Of a DNA stretch of 64,000 nt, positions 22,321 through 47,255 are shown piece after piece. Made by a program: the position numbers and the translations under genes. The stretch spans positions 744,001 through 808,000 of the forward strand of contig NZ_CP053833.1 of assembly GCF_013201935.1 (NCBI RefSeq), read 5' to 3'. Below the pieces are notes generated by a model. The model was not told where the DNA came from. It was given only the letters and a program-made list of their open reading frames with translations, and did not search any database. How positions within the stretch are numbered: position 1 is the first letter of the stretch; the number at the start of each line of letters is the position of its first letter. The stretch comes from Arcobacter cloacae. Its GTDB lineage: Bacteria; Campylobacterota; Campylobacteria; Campylobacterales; Arcobacteraceae.

Positions 22321-23564
22321 TTATATCTCTGTTCCATTATCAAGTATTATTCTATCTCTTCCTTTATGTTTGGCTTCATAAAGAAGTTCATCTGCTCTTT
22401 TTTTAGCTTCTTGAAAAGAGTTATATTTATTTCTATAAGTAACTCCAGCACTAAATTTTAGTTTTATATTTGCTTCTTTATATATAAAATTACTATTACT
22501 TAGAGCTTTTTTTACCCTTTTTACATATCTTTCAACTTCAATTTCATCTTGATAATTAATTAAAGCGATAAACTCTTCTCCGCCATATCTAGCTATAACA
22601 TCTTCTTTTCTCGTTAAATTTTTTAAAATTCCTGCAAAACTTTTTAAAACAGCATCTCCACAATTGTGTCCATATTTATCATTTATATTTTTAAAATGGT
22701 CAATATCATAAAAAACTACAGCATAATCACCATTAAAAATAGAGAATTTTTTTCCATTTTTTCAACTTCTTGGTTATATCCTCTTCTATTTAATATACCA
22801 GTGAGAAAATCTATTTGATGCTCTTCTTTTACTAAATTTAGTTCATTTTGAAGTTCTTCTATCTGTTTATTTAGATAATCAAATTTTTCTTTATTATCTG
22901 TTATTATTTGCTTGTTTTGTTTTAAAGAGTTCTCAATTTTATAAATAGTATCAATTAGCTTTTTCTGTACAATTTTTAATTCTCTATGGGAAGAGTTTGA
23001 TATATTCAGATTAATTAATTCATCTTTTATTTTCATAATCTCTTCGGTAGAATTTTCGCCATCATTTAAGGTTTTATCAAAATATCTACTCATCAAAGAG
23101 GTTAGTTTTACAATATCATCTGTTTTATCTTTTAAAACTTTTCTATCTGAGTCTATTCTTTTTTGAGAAATCTCTTTTAATTTGTTTATAGATTCATCTG
23201 AAGTTACATTTTGAGGAGTTTTTAAAATTTCAATTATAAAATCTTCAATCTCTTCTATAAAATTGAAATCAGCAGAAGGTGTAAGCATTTGCTCAAAGCA
23301 AAAAATTAATTTTTTTAACTCTTCTTTAGAAGTTCTTTTTGCTAGAATAATCGCTAAATCTTTAAAAGATTCTATTTTATTTTGTTTTTCTTCATTTGTT
23401 AAAGACTCTTTTATTTTTTCAAATAGTTCTATCTCTTCAATTTTCGCATTTAATGCATAAGATTGTTTTCTAAACTCTACAAAATAATTTTCAGGAGTAG
23501 TCTGTATATTTTCATTTTTTAATTGAAAAAGAGTATTTTTTGTAAGTTCTTTAATATTAACCAA
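22321..23564 (-). pseudogene. diguanylate cyclase interrupted by a one-base frameshift
   Basis: The first frame runs from 23564 to a stop at 22716 and encodes a 280-residue helical sensor part ending in DFLTGILNRRGYNQEV. The rest of the GGDEF domain continues in another frame to 22321: VVFYDIDHFKNINDKYGH, then the I-site RKED and ARYGGEEF, ending KHKGRDRIILDNG. The switch lies at an A7 run (22747-22753 on plus as T7) or the A6 run at 22757-22762; one added A in either restores a continuous 414-residue protein. The downstream piece has no ATG of its own, so it cannot be made separately. It is either a true mutation, a phase-variable tract or a sequencing error. Confidence 0.85.
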
Positions 23565-30947: not shown

Positions 30948-31477
30948 TTATCATAGGTAGTATAGTAATAATAGCTTTAATATTGTTATTTATAATAGTT
31001 TTTTTATTAATAAATAGTAGTTCATCAAAACAAGTTAAAACAAAAAAAATTTATCAAAATCAAAATCAAGTTGTAGATTTAGATGAGATTAGATTTCCAA
31101 GAAATGTAGAAAATATGAATGGAACAGTTTTAACACAAGCTTGTAAAGTAATTATTGATTCTTACAAGGCGTTAAATTATGCAAATAAACTTCCAAGTGC
31201 TATGGATAAGATAGAGTGGCATACTTGGCAGGTTTCAATACTTTTATTTTTTTTAAAAAGTAAGTATGTACTAAATATTTCTAATAGTAGTCAATTATTT
31301 CATGAGACAATTTTAAATCTTAGTAAAAATCATATAAATCAAGATATGCAAAAAATATTAAAAAAATATTTAGATAATGCAAATGTTGATAAAGATAGAG
31401 ATACTTTAAGTAAAGATGTAATTTGGACAGCAAGAGAAGTTTCTATTATTTTGCATGAAATATTAGAGCTTAAATAA
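30938..31477 (+). CDS. membrane-anchored hypothetical protein, 179 aa
   Basis: I do not recognise a family. It starts at GTG (30938-30940), preceded by CAGGAAGAAT. Residues 2-27 form one membrane helix ([23 protein letters not shown]), then a polar linker ([18 protein letters not shown]) and a helical cytoplasmic domain of about 125 residues (LDEIRFPRN..., ending [11 protein letters not shown]). It is translationally coupled with the upstream phosphoesterase (10-base overlap) and lies 10 bases before the inferred uvrB start. Function unknown. Confidence 0.6.
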
Positions 31478-31490
31478 AGGAGAAATCATC
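31476..31490 (+). promoter_or_regulatory. uvrB ribosome-binding site and non-canonical ATC start
   Basis: AAAGGAG at 31476-31482 is followed after 5 bases by ATC (31488-31490) and then the conserved UvrB N-terminus [16 protein letters not shown]. No ATG, GTG or TTG occurs in this frame between the upstream in-frame stop (31464-31466) and 31671, which lies beyond Walker A. Confidence 0.7.
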
Positions 31491-33461
31491 GCAAAGTTTA
31501 AAGTAGTAAGCGAATATGAACCCTCAGGTGATCAACCTGTTGCTATTAAAGCCTTAAGTGATTCAATAAATGCAGGAAATAAATACAATACACTTTTAGG
31601 AGTTACTGGTAGTGGTAAAACTTATACAATAGCTAAAGTTATTGAAAAAGTTCAAAAACCAACACTTATAATGACTCACAACAAAACTTTAGCTGCTCAG
31701 TTATACTCTGAATTTCGACAGTTTTTTCCAAATAATCATGTTGAATATTTCATCTCTTATTATGATTATTATCAGCCAGAAGCTTATATTCCAAGAAGCG
31801 ATTTATTTATTGAAAAAGATAGCTCAATTAATGAAGAGTTAGAAAGATTAAGACTTAGTGCAACAGCTTCACTTTTATCTTTTGATGATGTTATTGTAAT
31901 AGCTTCTGTTTCAGCAAATTATGGTTTAGGAAATCCTGCTGAATATAAAGCAATGGTTCAAAGAGTTGAAGTTGGTTTTGAATATTCTCAAAAAGAGTTT
32001 TTATTAAAACTTGTAGAAATGGGATACAAAAGAAATGATAAATTTTTTGATAGGGCTGATTTTAGAGTAAATGGGGATGTTATAGATATTTTTCCTGCTT
32101 ATTTTGAAGATGAGTTTATTAGAGTTGAGTTTTTTGGTGATGAGGTTGAGAGTATCTCAAAACATGAATATATCACAAATAATAGAGTAAAAGATTTACA
32201 AGAAGTAATTATTTATTCAGTAAATCCTTTCGTTGTTTCAAATGATAAACTTGCAAATGCTGTAAAAGAGATAGAAGAAGAACTTGATGCAAGGCTGGAA
32301 TACTTTCAAAATGAAAATAAATTAGTTGAATATCAAAGACTAAAACAAAGGGTTGAGTTTGATTTAGAGATGATTGAAGGAACTGGAATGTGCAAAGGGA
32401 TTGAAAACTATGCACGACATTTAACTGGTCAAAAGCCAGGGGAAACTCCTTATTCTTTACTTGATTATTTTGAGCAAATGGGAAAAGATTTTTTACTTGT
32501 AGTTGATGAGTCTCATGTTTCACTTTCTCAATTTAGAGGAATGCACGCAGCTGATAGAAGTAGAAAAGAAGTTTTAGTTGAGTATGGATTTAGACTTCCA
32601 AGTGCACTTGATAACAGACCTTTAAAATTTGATGAGTTTATAAAAAAAGCTCCACATTATGTTTTTGTAAGTGCAACTCCAAATGAACTTGAACTTGAAA
32701 TGAGTTCAGTTGTGGCTGAGCAAATCATTCGTCCTACTGGACTTCTTGATCCAGTTATTGATATTATCGATAGTGAATTTCAAGTTGAAAAACTTCATGA
32801 TGAAATTAAAAAAGTAGTTGCTAAAAATGAAAGAGTTTTAGTTACAGTTTTAACGAAAAAAATGGCAGAAGAGTTGGCAAGTTATTACGCAGATTTAGGA
32901 ATAAAAGTAAAATATATGCACTCTGAAATAGACGCAATTGAGAGAAATCAAATAATAAGAGAGTTAAGAATTGGAACTTTTGATGTTTTAATAGGAATCA
33001 ACCTTTTAAGGGAAGGATTGGATATTCCTGAAACTTCTTTGGTTGCTATTTTAGATGCTGATAAAGAAGGATTTTTAAGAAGCAAAACTTCACTTATTCA
33101 AACAATTGGAAGAGCTGCTAGAAATGAAAATGGAAGAGTTATTTTATTTGCAAAAAAAATAACAGCTTCAATGCAGTTTGCTATTGATGAAACAAATAGA
33201 AGAAGAAAAATCCAAGAAGAACATAATATTAAAAACAACATAACTCCAAAATCCACAAAAAGAAGATTAGATGAAAATCTAAAACTCGAAGAGTATGATG
33301 ATGTGGCATGGAAAAAACAAAAACTAGAAAAAATGCCAGCAGCAGAGAGAAAAAAAATCTTAATTGAGTTAAATAATAAAATGAAAAAAGCAGCACAAGA
33401 CTTGAATTTTGAAGAAGCTATTAGATTAAGAGATGAGATAGCTAAGATTAAAGAGATATAA
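31488..33461 (+). CDS. uvrB: excinuclease ABC subunit B, with apparent ATC start
   Basis: UvrB is the damage-verifying helicase of nucleotide excision repair. From 31488 the product is 657 residues, the normal length: [16 protein letters not shown], Walker A GVTGSGKT (38-45), the beta-hairpin stretch [13 protein letters not shown], helicase motifs [26 protein letters not shown], and a C-terminal UVR coiled coil ([25 protein letters not shown]) that binds UvrC. The first ordinary start, at 31671, would remove Walker A. ATC therefore seems to be the initiation codon, or the original ATG was mutated or misread. It is followed 1 base later by nth. Confidence 0.9.
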
Positions 33462-44000: not shown

Positions 44001-44447
44001 ATGAGATCCCATGTTAAAACTTATGGAGTAGTTCCTTATTTAATTAAAGGTAAAGATATAAAGATATTATTGTGTTTATCAGTAGCTAGTAGAGATAAAT
44101 GGGGATGTTTAAAAGGAACAAAAAATAAAACTGAAACAGCTTATGAATGTGCAAAAAGAGAGTTTTATGAAGAGAGTTCAATTAGTGTTGAAATTGCACT
44201 ATTTGAAGACTATTTTGAACAATTAAATATTGATAAAGATGTTGGGGTTTGGTTAGTAAATGCCAGTAATATAGAAAATTTAGATAAATTTTTTTCTAAT
44301 GATACTTTAAAAAGTAATTATTTATCTTGGGAAAATTCTAAGGTAAAGTTCTTTTCTTTAGATAATTTACCTAGAATTAAAAATAAGCAAGTAAATTTAA
44401 TAAAAGAGATTAAGGATTTTTTGAAAAGTAAGAATCTATCCCATTAG
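44001..44447 (+). CDS. NUDIX hydrolase
   Basis: The Nudix box is present as GTKNKTETAYECAKREFYEES (read as G-x5-E-x7-RE-x2-EE), with the usual final glycine replaced by serine. The rest of the 148-residue protein fits the Nudix sandwich. The N-terminal KTYGVVPYLIKGKDIKILLC is a standard first strand. Substrate unknown; diadenosine polyphosphates or nucleotide sugars are common. Its end overlaps the convergent amidase gene by 38 bases. Confidence 0.85.
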   Translation: MRSHVKTYGVVPYLIKGKDIKILLCLSVASRDKWGCLKGTKNKTETAYECAKREFYEESSISVEIALFEDYFEQLNIDKDVGVWLVNASNIENLDKFFSNDTLKSNYLSWENSKVKFFSLDNLPRIKNKQVNLIKEIKDFLKSKNLSH

Positions 44448-46173
44448 CAATTCCATTTGCTAATAGTTCTTGATAACTCTTTTCATACAGTCTTCTGCTC
44501 TCTTCAGGATGAGAAATATACCCTAATTCTATTAAAATAGAAGGCATTTGAGCACCTACTAAAACCCAGAATGGTCCTTCTCTAACACCTGAATCTTTTG
44601 TGTCTTTATATTTTGTTCTAGCAGCTTGTAATAAGCCTGCTTGTACATCAATAGCAAATTTATGAGAAGCTGTGATTCTTGGACGATTTAAAGATTCAAG
44701 AAATACATCTTTTGATGAAGCACTCATCTCTCTAATATCTGATTTGTTTTCAAGTGCTGCAACTCTTTTGGCTCTTTCACTTCTTGCTGGACTTAAGAAG
44801 AATGTTTCAATTCCAGAAATCTGATTAGCCTTTTCTTTAGGAACGGCATTTGTATGAATAGATAAAAATAGATCAGCATTTTTTTCATTTGCTAGGATAG
44901 TTCTATCCATAACTTTTATAAATTTATCTTTATCTCTTGTTAAATAAACTTTATAACCTCTTTGTTTTAGTATAGATGCTAAATACTTAGATACATTAAG
45001 ATTTACAACTTTTTCATATCTTTTATTAGGTCCTACAGCTCCAACATCATCTCCCCCATGTCCTGCATCAATAACAATTGTTTTATTAATTGCTTTTTTA
45101 GTAGTAGTTGTTGTATTTTGTGTATTTGAATTATTTGCAAGATCAGTGGTTGTGATAATTAATTCTTTATCATTTAATGAATAATTTACTTTAAAATTAG
45201 AGTTATTTATAAGTCTAATTCTAATACTATCTGAACTATTCTGTGTTGCAATTATTTTATCAATTTCATCTATATTTAATTTAGTTGGATTAATATATTT
45301 ATATTGACCTTTTATATCAAATACGCTTTCATAATTCTTATTATTCATAAATGATTTTAGTTTAATATCATTTTTTGTGTAATTTTTATTGAATTTTACA
45401 ATAATTTTATTATCTATAGACGTTATAGAACGAATAGAGTTTTGAGTATCTATATTTGATTCTTCTAAATTATTTGATGGTTTAGTAACTGTATTAATAT
45501 TTGAATTTACAGTTGTTTTATTATTAGTTTGAAGATTGTTAACAGTTATTACTACTTGTCTTTTACTTATAGTGTATGTTGTATTTAAAGCCTCTTGATT
45601 TGATAGTACAATTCTTAATACATTTGGCTGAAATTGTCCTATAGATATTTTTTCTATTCCATTAATTGCAAGTTTTGTAGATGTGCTATCTTTAAAGTAA
45701 CCATTAATATCAAAAACATTTTTATATAAAGGTGGTTGATTTAATTTAAAAGCTTTTATATCTTCTTGAGTAATATCTACATTAAAATCAATAACAATTT
45801 TATTGTTTGAACTGTAAACAGAGTTTATAGCATAAACAACACCTTGATTATTTTTTTTAGGAGTATTTGAAATAGCTTGATTATTGTTTTTTATCTCTAT
45901 ATTTTCATTTAATTTAGATTTTTCAACATTGGTTTTAGGTTTTTTTTCCAGTAAAAGTTCAAGCTTTTTTTTATCTGGACGTACATCTTTATTTAATTTT
46001 TCTCCAAAAGAGATAATTTTATTTAACTCTTCTATCTTTTGTTTTTCATCTTTTTTTAAAGAAGCCTTTAAAAATTCTATTTTTGCATTACGATACTGTT
46101 GCTCATAATAATTTAGATTATCGGCAAGTAATATATTAATAACAAAGATGAAAATAAAAAAGATTCTAAGTAT
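44410..46173 (-). CDS. N-acetylmuramoyl-L-alanine amidase with two AMIN domains, apparent ATA start
   Basis: The frame is open from 46224 to 44410 and has no ATG, GTG or TTG before 45348. I place the start at ATA 46173-46171, with GGAG 7 bases before it; this gives a signal peptide (residues 1-18, LRIFFIFIFVINILLAD), a charged coiled region (about 20-90), two AMIN-like domains (about 110-215 and 255-345) and a zinc Amidase_3 domain (about 362-587; IDAGHGGDDVG with H372, E387, then LSIHTNA). 587 residues. It would cut septal peptidoglycan in the periplasm. A start at 45348 would remove the signal peptide and most AMIN sequence. Confidence 0.85.
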   Translation of the reverse strand: MLRIFFIFIFVINILLADNLNYYEQQYRNAKIEFLKASLKKDEKQKIEELNKIISFGEKLNKDVRPDKKKLELLLEKKPKTNVEKSKLNENIEIKNNNQAISNTPKKNNQGVVYAINSVYSSNNKIVIDFNVDITQEDIKAFKLNQPPLYKNVFDINGYFKDSTSTKLAINGIEKISIGQFQPNVLRIVLSNQEALNTTYTISKRQVVITVNNLQTNNKTTVNSNINTVTKPSNNLEESNIDTQNSIRSITSIDNKIIVKFNKNYTKNDIKLKSFMNNKNYESVFDIKGQYKYINPTKLNIDEIDKIIATQNSSDSIRIRLINNSNFKVNYSLNDKELIITTTDLANNSNTQNTTTTTKKAINKTIVIDAGHGGDDVGAVGPNKRYEKVVNLNVSKYLASILKQRGYKVYLTRDKDKFIKVMDRTILANEKNADLFLSIHTNAVPKEKANQISGIETFFLSPARSERAKRVAALENKSDIREMSASSKDVFLESLNRPRITASHKFAIDVQAGLLQAARTKYKDTKDSGVREGPFWVLVGAQMPSILIELGYISHPEESRRLYEKSYQELLANGIANGIDSYFSKNP

Positions 46174-46184
46174 AACTATTCTCC
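46171..46184 (-). promoter_or_regulatory. amidase ribosome-binding site and ATA start
   Basis: GGAG (46184-46181) lies inside the last codons of the nitronate monooxygenase-like gene; the ATA at 46173-46171 is 7 bases downstream and 2 bases after that gene's TAG. This is the usual coupled-gene arrangement except for the start codon. Confidence 0.6.
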
Positions 46185-47255
46185 AACTGTTAATTTTTGC
46201 ATTAATTCTTTTACAGAAATAATTTTATCAATTCTATATCCATTTGAACCAGAAAAGAAAAGACCTGTTTCCACATCACCTTGATAAGCAGCTCCTAATC
46301 TATCAGCAATACAGTACCCAACTAGTTTTGCTTCATGTCCTCTATTACATGGGGCAACACAGTTTGAAATACATTGAACTTTTGGTGCTGTATGATTTTC
46401 TATTGAAAATTGTAAATTTGTTTTAACACCACGTGCAGGTAATCCAACAGGTGATTTCATTAGTTGTATATCTTCGGCTTTTGCATTTAAAAGTACATTT
46501 TTGAATTGTGCATCTGCATCACATTCAAATGTTCCTATAAATCTAGTTGCCATTTGAACACCAACACATCCCATTTCTAAAAATTTATCAATATCTTTCT
46601 TATCCCAGATTCCACCAGCTGCTATAACAGGAATATTCCCCCATTTTTTTGCTTCTTCAATTACATCAGGAACGATATTTTCAAGTTGAAACTCTTCTTT
46701 ATAGCAATCTTCATACTTAAATCCTTGATGTCCACCACTTAATGGACCTTCAACTATAACAGCATCAGGTAATTTATTATATCTTTCCCATTTCTTACAA
46801 ATAAGTTTTAAAGCTCTTGCACTTGAAACAATAGGAATTAATGCAACATCAGGATACTCTTTTGTAAATTCTGGCATATTTGTAGGAATTCCAGCACCTG
46901 TTATTATGATGTTAGCACCTGCTTCACAAGCATCACGTACTACTCTTCCATAATCATTAATTGCATATAAAACATTACAAGCTAATGGTGCATCAGAACA
47001 AATTTTTCTAGCATTTTGAAAGATTTCAGTAAGGGCATCTTTACTATAAAAGTTTAAAACATCTTTTGGTTTATCTTTTTTTGTAACAATATGTACATTT
47101 TCACTTTTATTTTTGTAATAACCTGTTCCAACAGCTGAAATAACACCAAGACCACCCTCAAGACTTACATTTCCAGCTAATTGATCCCAACTAATTCCAA
47201 CTCCCATTCCACCTTGAATTATTGGGTGTTTAATTTCATATTTTCCTATTTTCAA
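46176..47255 (-). CDS. nitronate monooxygenase-family FMN oxidoreductase
   Basis: The 359-residue TIM-barrel protein begins HPIIQGGMGVGISWDQLAGNV and includes VEGPLSGGHQGFKYED (with the family histidine), VIAAGGIWDKKDIDKFLEMGCVGVQMATRF and a cysteine-rich stretch CISNCVAPCNRG near the C-terminus. FabK enoyl reductases look similar; the GGHQG motif favours nitronate monooxygenase or an uncharacterised relative. It sits between tyrS and the amidase gene in a long operon. The cysteine cluster is a notable extra. Confidence 0.82.
   Translation of the reverse strand: MKIGKYEIKHPIIQGGMGVGISWDQLAGNVSLEGGLGVISAVGTGYYKNKSENVHIVTKKDKPKDVLNFYSKDALTEIFQNARKICSDAPLACNVLYAINDYGRVVRDACEAGANIIITGAGIPTNMPEFTKEYPDVALIPIVSSARALKLICKKWERYNKLPDAVIVEGPLSGGHQGFKYEDCYKEEFQLENIVPDVIEEAKKWGNIPVIAAGGIWDKKDIDKFLEMGCVGVQMATRFIGTFECDADAQFKNVLLNAKAEDIQLMKSPVGLPARGVKTNLQFSIENHTAPKVQCISNCVAPCNRGHEAKLVGYCIADRLGAAYQGDVETGLFFSGSNGYRIDKIISVKELMQKLTVGE

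Follow-up and report, generated by a model that had tools for sequence, protein, structure and literature searches.

Predicted AUA start codon of an amidase gene of Arcobacter cloacae and conserved AUH starts in related genomes

Results

The amidase gene and its start site

The 64,000-nucleotide stretch of Arcobacter cloacae DNA analyzed here (the window; contig NZ_CP053833.1, positions 744,001 to 808,000) carries on its minus strand a gene for a nitronate monooxygenase (NMO), followed by amiA, a gene for an N-acetylmuramoyl-alanine amidase (Table 1). Below, ATG, GTG and TTG are called canonical starts, and ATH stands for ATT, ATA or ATC (AUH in RNA). The amidase frame is open from 46224, after a TAA at 46227, down to its stop at 44410, and no canonical start codon occurs in it from 46224 to 45349. 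The NMO gene ends GGA GAA TAG; two bases later comes an ATA, and a GGAG lying within the last two NMO codons ends 7 bases 5′ of it. The first canonical codon after this ATA is an ATG exactly 825 bases (275 codons) downstream. An earlier note on this DNA had described the layout and proposed ATA as the start; the description proved correct on the minus strand, and a comparison with 97 further family loci supports the proposal. Another ATA, at 46179, overlaps the NMO stop as ATAG and was ruled out as a start, as it lies only 1 base from the GGAG and its column reads ATA in just 40 of the 73 ATH loci described below, the rest having AAT, GTA or other triplets.

Read from ATA, the predicted protein begins (M)LRIFFIFIFVINILLAD, a hydrophobic, signal-like start, and continues with a helical stretch, two beta domains and Amidase_3, a domain that Pfam found in all 19 amidase proteins scanned. 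The AMIN domains named in the earlier note stand by fold only: Pfam gave no AMIN match in the window protein and a weak one (E 0.017) in 1 of 19 aligned amidase proteins, but the AlphaFold model (mean pLDDT 75, pTM 0.45) contains two eight-strand beta domains, and its top solved-structure match is Escherichia coli AmiC (4bin, E 8.5e-21). The TM-scores against 4bin are just 0.31 and 0.51, and the domain arrangement fails to superpose.

Table 1 Features of the amidase locus and of uvrB in the window.
Feature	Position	Strand	Basis
ATA start codon, amidase gene (predicted)	46171..46173	-	sequence; homologous codon ATH in 73/98 family loci; ATG in the same 'xLRI' context in outgroups
Shine-Dalgarno GGAG	46181..46184	-	4- or 6-base match at spacing 5-10 in 73/73 ATH loci
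Nitronate monooxygenase (NMO), preceding gene, stop TAG 46178-46176	46176..47255	-	PF03060, E 2.4e-86; first in-frame start listed is TTG
Amidase coding region from ATA, 587 residues + stop	44410..46173	-	reading frame
Predicted signal peptide region, residues 1-18	46120..46173	-	by eye; hydrophobic start kept in 73 loci
Two beta domains, residues 115-212 and 247-344	45142..45831	-	AMIN-like by fold only
Amidase_3 catalytic domain, residues 366-580	44434..45078	-	PF01520, E 1e-48
First in-frame ATG, start given by the ATG/GTG/TTG-only ORF list	45346..45348	-	ORF list
uvrB, ATC start 31488-31490 (predicted), second ATC at 31485	31488..33461	+	AAGGAG 31477-31482; preceding ORF ends 31477

Homologous starts in related genomes

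Searches with the amidase matched 30 of 31 genomes of the genus, 100 of 104 of the family and 384 of 398 of the order. We read 99 family loci (30 same-genus loci, 12 others supplied by the search and 57 that were fetched), leaving out one genome whose match contained stops (G071); a locus at a contig start with no NMO upstream (L098) was dropped, so that 98 were tallied, all with NMO upstream by construction. A locus was classed as ATH if no canonical start lay within the span reaching from 21 bases ahead of the end of the upstream stop to 17 bases beyond it, the ATH codon itself being permitted from 1 base before that point to 17 bases after. A related-locus search returned four distant SAR86 loci and nothing else, and a plasmid search gave only amidases below 60% identity.

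The homologous start is ATH without a canonical alternative in 73 of the 98 loci and canonical in 24 (14 TTG, 8 ATG and 2 GTG); one (L082) is lost in a run of Ns. ATH recurs at this site more often than chance would allow, and the ATH loci are spread over 13 of the 19 genera, five others (g5, g7, g8, g12 and g20) having canonical starts only. Counting the first ATH, the 73 starts are 67 ATT, 3 ATA and 3 ATC; taking the later of two adjacent ATH codons, they are 66, 4 and 3. Within the genus, 28 of the 30 loci carry ATT, ATA or ATC without a canonical start and none carries ATG, the exceptions being L022, where TTG directly follows an ATT, and L023, with TTG one codon on. The ATH loci were chosen for an ATH near the stop, yet in all 73 the codon begins 0–2 bases past it (+2 in 51, +1 in 20 and 0 in 2). 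The coupling to the preceding gene that the earlier note proposed therefore stands as far as position goes.

Outside the family, 20 fetched loci comprise 17 with ATG, 1 with GTG and 2 with ATH (ATT in L122, ATA in L124). Four Campylobacter-like loci (L105–L108) and L120 have their ATG in the context ATG CTT/CTA AGA/AAG ATM, to be compared with ATA CTT AGA ATC in the window, and because of this shared 'MLRI' context the window ATA seems to correspond to an ordinary ATG. The four also have an ATG three codons further upstream, and either could be their start. The label Campylobacter-like rests on gene content and order, spoT-tyrS-NMO-amiA being an order known from Campylobacter. In L122 (family f18), the ATT of amiA and the upstream stop seem to share bases as ATTAA, an overlap that is possible only with a non-canonical start.

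A tree was built on the neighboring NMO protein for 115 of 118 loci, the other three being excluded for their short NMO pieces, with SH-aLRT as the only branch support and some branches left open. On this tree, the ATH-versus-canonical label changes 6 times, against a mean of 33.7 after shuffling and with none of 500 shuffles as low. There is one large ATH clade (70 ATH, 3 TTG, 1 unreadable and no ATG) with returns to TTG (L022, L023 and L085), and ATH appears separately in L083 and in L122 with L124. Of the 73 ATH loci, 71 are on the tree, and among them the start column never departs from ATH, compared with 1–14 changes in the next 18 columns. The third base of the start varies among T, A and C, with 6 changes. 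It is T in 66 of the 73 starts, against 107 of 198 isoleucine codons among the 18 positions that follow and 971 of 1373 within NMO, a comparison whose p-values come out too small owing to the relatedness of the loci. Codons 2–26 of the amidase gene gave a pN of 0.038 and a pS of 0.148 (8 close pairs), and coding constraint hence begins at the ATH codon.

Ribosome-binding sites of ATH and canonical loci

Shine-Dalgarno strength was scored as the contiguous match to AAGGAGG ending 4–10 bases before the start. All 73 ATH loci of the family have a 4- or 6-base match; a match of at least 4 bases is found in 6 of the 24 canonical loci and in none of the 8 with ATG. Outgroup locus L122 scored zero, the ATT counted there being the one after the ATT that follows AAGGAG. 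Across these sequences, a weak start codon of the amidase gene tends to go with a strong ribosome-binding site, and a poor site with a stronger codon.

Candidate ATH starts on other genes

The second gene with a near-AUG start that the earlier note saw in the window proved real: it is uvrB, with ATC (Table 1). Among the 29 readable loci of 30 in the genus, the uvrB start is ATC in 13, ATA in 1, TTG in 12 and ATG in 3; in three of the loci with ATC, an in-frame TAA separates this codon from a TTG 8 codons upstream. For ftsK, the aligned start is ATH in all 29 readable same-genus loci, with no canonical codon close by, although in three a TTG occurs 18 codons upstream. In the 25 genomes read from 17 other genera of the family, the ftsK start is ATH in 23, two of them with a TTG 11 or 17 codons upstream, and TTG in 2 (both in g17), which brings ATH to 52 of the 54 family loci read. 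Four of the 23 (L379, L383, L384 and L385) have an in-frame TAA one codon before the ATA, so that no canonical choice is left. In outgroups, each represented by one genome, ftsK starts with ATT in L388 (with a TTG 13–14 codons upstream) and L390, TTG in L389 and ATG in L393; the Campylobacter-like L392 (genome G426) reads AAAGGA-TGTGTT-ATA, and its open frame lacks a canonical codon throughout the first 60 positions. The ATT or ATA of L388, L390 and L392 sits at Shine-Dalgarno spacing, and no canonical start lies near it. A third gene, an NMT1-type sensor kinase, starts by eye with ATH in 10, TTG in 6 and ATG in 3 of its best 19 loci (L245–L263, about 53% identity or more).

We surveyed 864 kb of the 2.81-Mb genome (31%; the window plus 40 stretches of 20 kb), in which 713 coding-like frames gave 11 ATH rows. 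Seven genes were kept after the N-termini had been read: amiA, uvrB, the sensor kinase (L126, 15093, minus strand), ftsK (L215, 3348, minus strand) and three that were named by eye, each from one genome only, namely a pilin-like gene (ATA; L137, 9591, minus strand), an iron-type permease (ATA; L222, 16424, plus strand) and a WYL-type regulator (ATT; L217, 9862, minus strand). The permease ATA apparently overlaps the upstream stop as ATAA. The four rows dropped were second rows of ftsK and uvrB, one with an ATG 12 codons on (L220, 17919) and one at 22569 of the window, inside a broken gene. The latter, GGDEF-type by eye (22321–23564, minus strand), loses its frame near 22740–22760 in an A-rich stretch and has its halves in different frames.

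The same survey was run on controls. Genome G102 gave 1 ATH row in 330 frames, a gene that looks by eye like tatD (L243, 16028, plus strand; ATA after AAGG); G426 gave 1 in 316, which was discarded because of its position 62 codons inside the frame (the ATA-start ftsK of G426 falls outside the sample); and L. salivarius pMP118 gave 1 in 163, which coincides with the start annotated for a phage capsid gene. In 200 kb of E. coli (two stretches picked for infC and pcnB), 1 row in 129 was obtained, infC being recovered and pcnB missed. Set against the three AT-rich controls (G102, G426 and pMP118), 7 of 713 gives p 0.03 if 1 of their 809 frames is counted and p 0.09 if 2 are, so that an excess of ATH genes here is suggestive only. 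As the ATH class of the survey lies within the background, each candidate gene needs its own comparison. In the same genus, infC starts with TTG in 30 of 30 loci (L145–L174) and was thereby ruled out as an AUU gene.

A special initiator tRNA was considered and rejected: 58 tRNA matches led to 30 cut loci, and the tRNAs that ARAGORN read in 28 of these include none with a UAU anticodon. Three of them have a CAU anticodon, and one of the three carries the usual initiator marks. With one ordinary-looking initiator CAU tRNA, AUH would be read with a third-base mismatch. The genome also has an Asp-Val-Glu-Lys tRNA cluster in two tandem copies (G000:C1:647617-648498).

From these comparisons, we conclude that the lineage appears to use AUH starts on a set of conserved genes.

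Interpretation of the amidase start and alternatives

The reading that we consider probable is that the amidase is translated from AUA (AUU in most relatives), 0–2 bases past the upstream stop and 5–10 bases after a strong Shine-Dalgarno sequence, and that the weak codon sets a low output. Several observations weigh against it. The amidase start is canonical in 24 of the 98 family loci, and one same-genus locus carries its ATT with a TTG immediately after. At ftsK, five of the 52 ATH loci offer an in-frame TTG 11–18 codons upstream. In the single-genome survey taken by itself, ATH does not exceed other codons at Shine-Dalgarno-spaced sites (10 of 99, against 46 of 773 for other codons, p 0.13). 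The Shine-Dalgarno contrast at amiA for the most part sets a single clade apart from the rest: starred branches yield just four independent pairs, of which on average 2.6 point the expected way and 0.0 the other way, too few to test, with 1 contrary pair in 8 of 200 pairings. Finally, a neutral origin of the AUH start is possible.

This last point leads to the alternative that fares best, although we find it doubtful: the AUH start would be real but merely tolerated, tight coupling and a strong Shine-Dalgarno sequence making the codon near-neutral while drift in an AT-rich genome replaced ATG. The position of the start right behind the stop in all 73 loci, the 27% G+C of the sampled genome and the drifting third base are as this account would have it. 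Against it, the big ATH clade has no ATG at all, though ATA to ATG takes a single transition, and a third-base T is commoner at the start than in nearby isoleucine codons. In addition, the ATA-start sensor kinase seems to have an intergenic leader (by eye, with its upstream gene unmapped). The relaxed start selection suggested in the earlier note survives in altered form: individual genes retain AUH across many genera along with a strong Shine-Dalgarno sequence, a pattern that resembles selection more than sloppiness.

It is very unlikely that the protein starts downstream, at ATG 45348 or another internal codon, and that the upstream frame is a relic. That ATG would leave the whole Amidase_3 domain, and an in-frame ATG occurs some 30 codons into the gene in several relatives. 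However, the upstream stretch is constrained as protein (pN 0.117 and pS 0.435 over 275 codons against L003), the hydrophobic N-terminus is kept in 73 loci, and the window species offers no canonical codon before 45348. A protein beginning there, at residue 276, would have neither the export signal nor the first beta domain and would lack the beginning of the second.

A fusion of the amidase with NMO through frameshifting or readthrough is extremely improbable, even though the two frames overlap by about 50 bases in some species. The phase between them follows the offsets given above and differs among the 73 loci, so that a conserved frameshift or readthrough cannot work; the upstream start by frameshift that the earlier note had considered is unlikely for the same reason. 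In many species, only 10 bases of open amidase frame precede the end of the NMO stop. A signal peptide in mid-protein would also make little sense.

That a sequencing or assembly error made ATA from ATG has a negligible chance, despite two such genes and a broken-frame GGDEF gene in one window, since 27 of the 29 other same-genus loci have ATA, ATT or ATC without a canonical start, two have TTG beside the site and none has ATG, and since ftsK shows ATH likewise across relatives; the shared sequence-quality problem raised in the earlier note is thereby excluded.

Discussion

Initiation at AUA or AUU, with the weak codon limiting output, is thus the reading of the amidase start that we carry forward. 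We infer use of the codon in vivo, a low output, a dependence on initiation factor IF3, coupling to NMO and a reason for low output, in the following scheme. Ribosomes finishing NMO, or binding the Shine-Dalgarno sequence directly, would initiate at AUH, the very short stop-start distances favoring termination-reinitiation. The ordinary fMet-tRNA(CAU) would read the codon, the third-base mismatch making initiation poor, and IF3 would disfavor such mismatched pairs. The weak codon could set a low rate for a potentially harmful wall hydrolase, while the strong Shine-Dalgarno sequence and the adjacent stop keep the initiation site accurate. The same device may act on ftsK, uvrB and the sensor kinase in this lineage. 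By analogy with described systems, the role of AUH is most likely to hold translation low, the strong ribosome-binding site keeping the site exact.

AUH is kept at amiA (73 of 98 loci), at ftsK (52 of 54, plus 3 of 5 outgroup families with one genome each) and at uvrB in about half of the genus. Start-codon strength might thus be a heritable property, set for each gene and comparable across many species, and annotation restricted to ATG, GTG and TTG would miss the N-termini and export signals of important proteins. Tentatively, one may go further: the order could have inherited an ancient gene class, making up perhaps 1% of the genome and including ftsK, in which AUA, AUU or AUC starts are kept throughout many genera. 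These would encode IF3-read, low-copy envelope, division and repair proteins, whose output would co-vary with initiation stringency and whose N-termini would be wrong under ATG/GTG/TTG-only annotation.

In the parts of the reports available to us, the genome annotation of Arcobacter butzleri used ATG, GTG and TTG only (PMC2147049), and an initiation map of Campylobacter jejuni names just these three codons (PMC11955535). No report of AUH starts in this family was found in the open literature searched, from which most subscription journals are absent. As far as the open literature shows, conserved AUH starts are of a known kind, and what is new are the genes involved, the breadth and the number in one lineage.

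AUH starts are mostly known as single curiosities, such as those of infC and pcnB. In E. coli, the annotated starts of both genes read ATT; they are AUU starts of single genes, akin to the window case, although infC itself has AUU in E. coli and TTG in the present genus. E. coli AmiC, which consists of AMIN plus amidase, is an Amidase_3 enzyme like the window amidase; unlike it, the latter has an extra helical N-terminal region, two beta domains (in the model) and a predicted AUA start.

E. coli infC is described as autoregulated through IF3 (PMC13009471), and, in vitro, more IF3 lowers mismatched pairs, including AUU with CAU (PMC10158994). A further paper mentions that, in rare overlaps, ATT may partner stop codons (PMC10666635). 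In Borrelia burgdorferi, the AUU start of pncA was overlooked by databases, leading to a truncated annotation (PMC13398362); that case differs from ours in being, in that account, a single plasmid gene of one species. The GTC start of Streptomyces sigR keeps SigR low through IF3 (PMC5472188). Like the amidase start, it is a weak and conserved non-canonical codon, lowered product being a feature of sigR; it differs in its codon, in serving a sigma factor and in that IF3 dependence was tested there.

A close parallel is in Staphylococcus aureus, where cvfC1 (AUU), ccpN (AUA) and infC (AUA) have conserved starts with strong or extended Shine-Dalgarno sequences, and where the AUU and AUA starts of cvfC1 and ccpN yield about 10% of the AUG output in poor medium, rising to as much as 30% for ccpN in rich medium (PMC13009471). 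The present case resembles these in pairing a conserved, predicted AUU or AUA start with a strong Shine-Dalgarno sequence; it differs in lying in another phylum and in concerning other genes (amiA, ftsK, uvrB and the sensor kinase).

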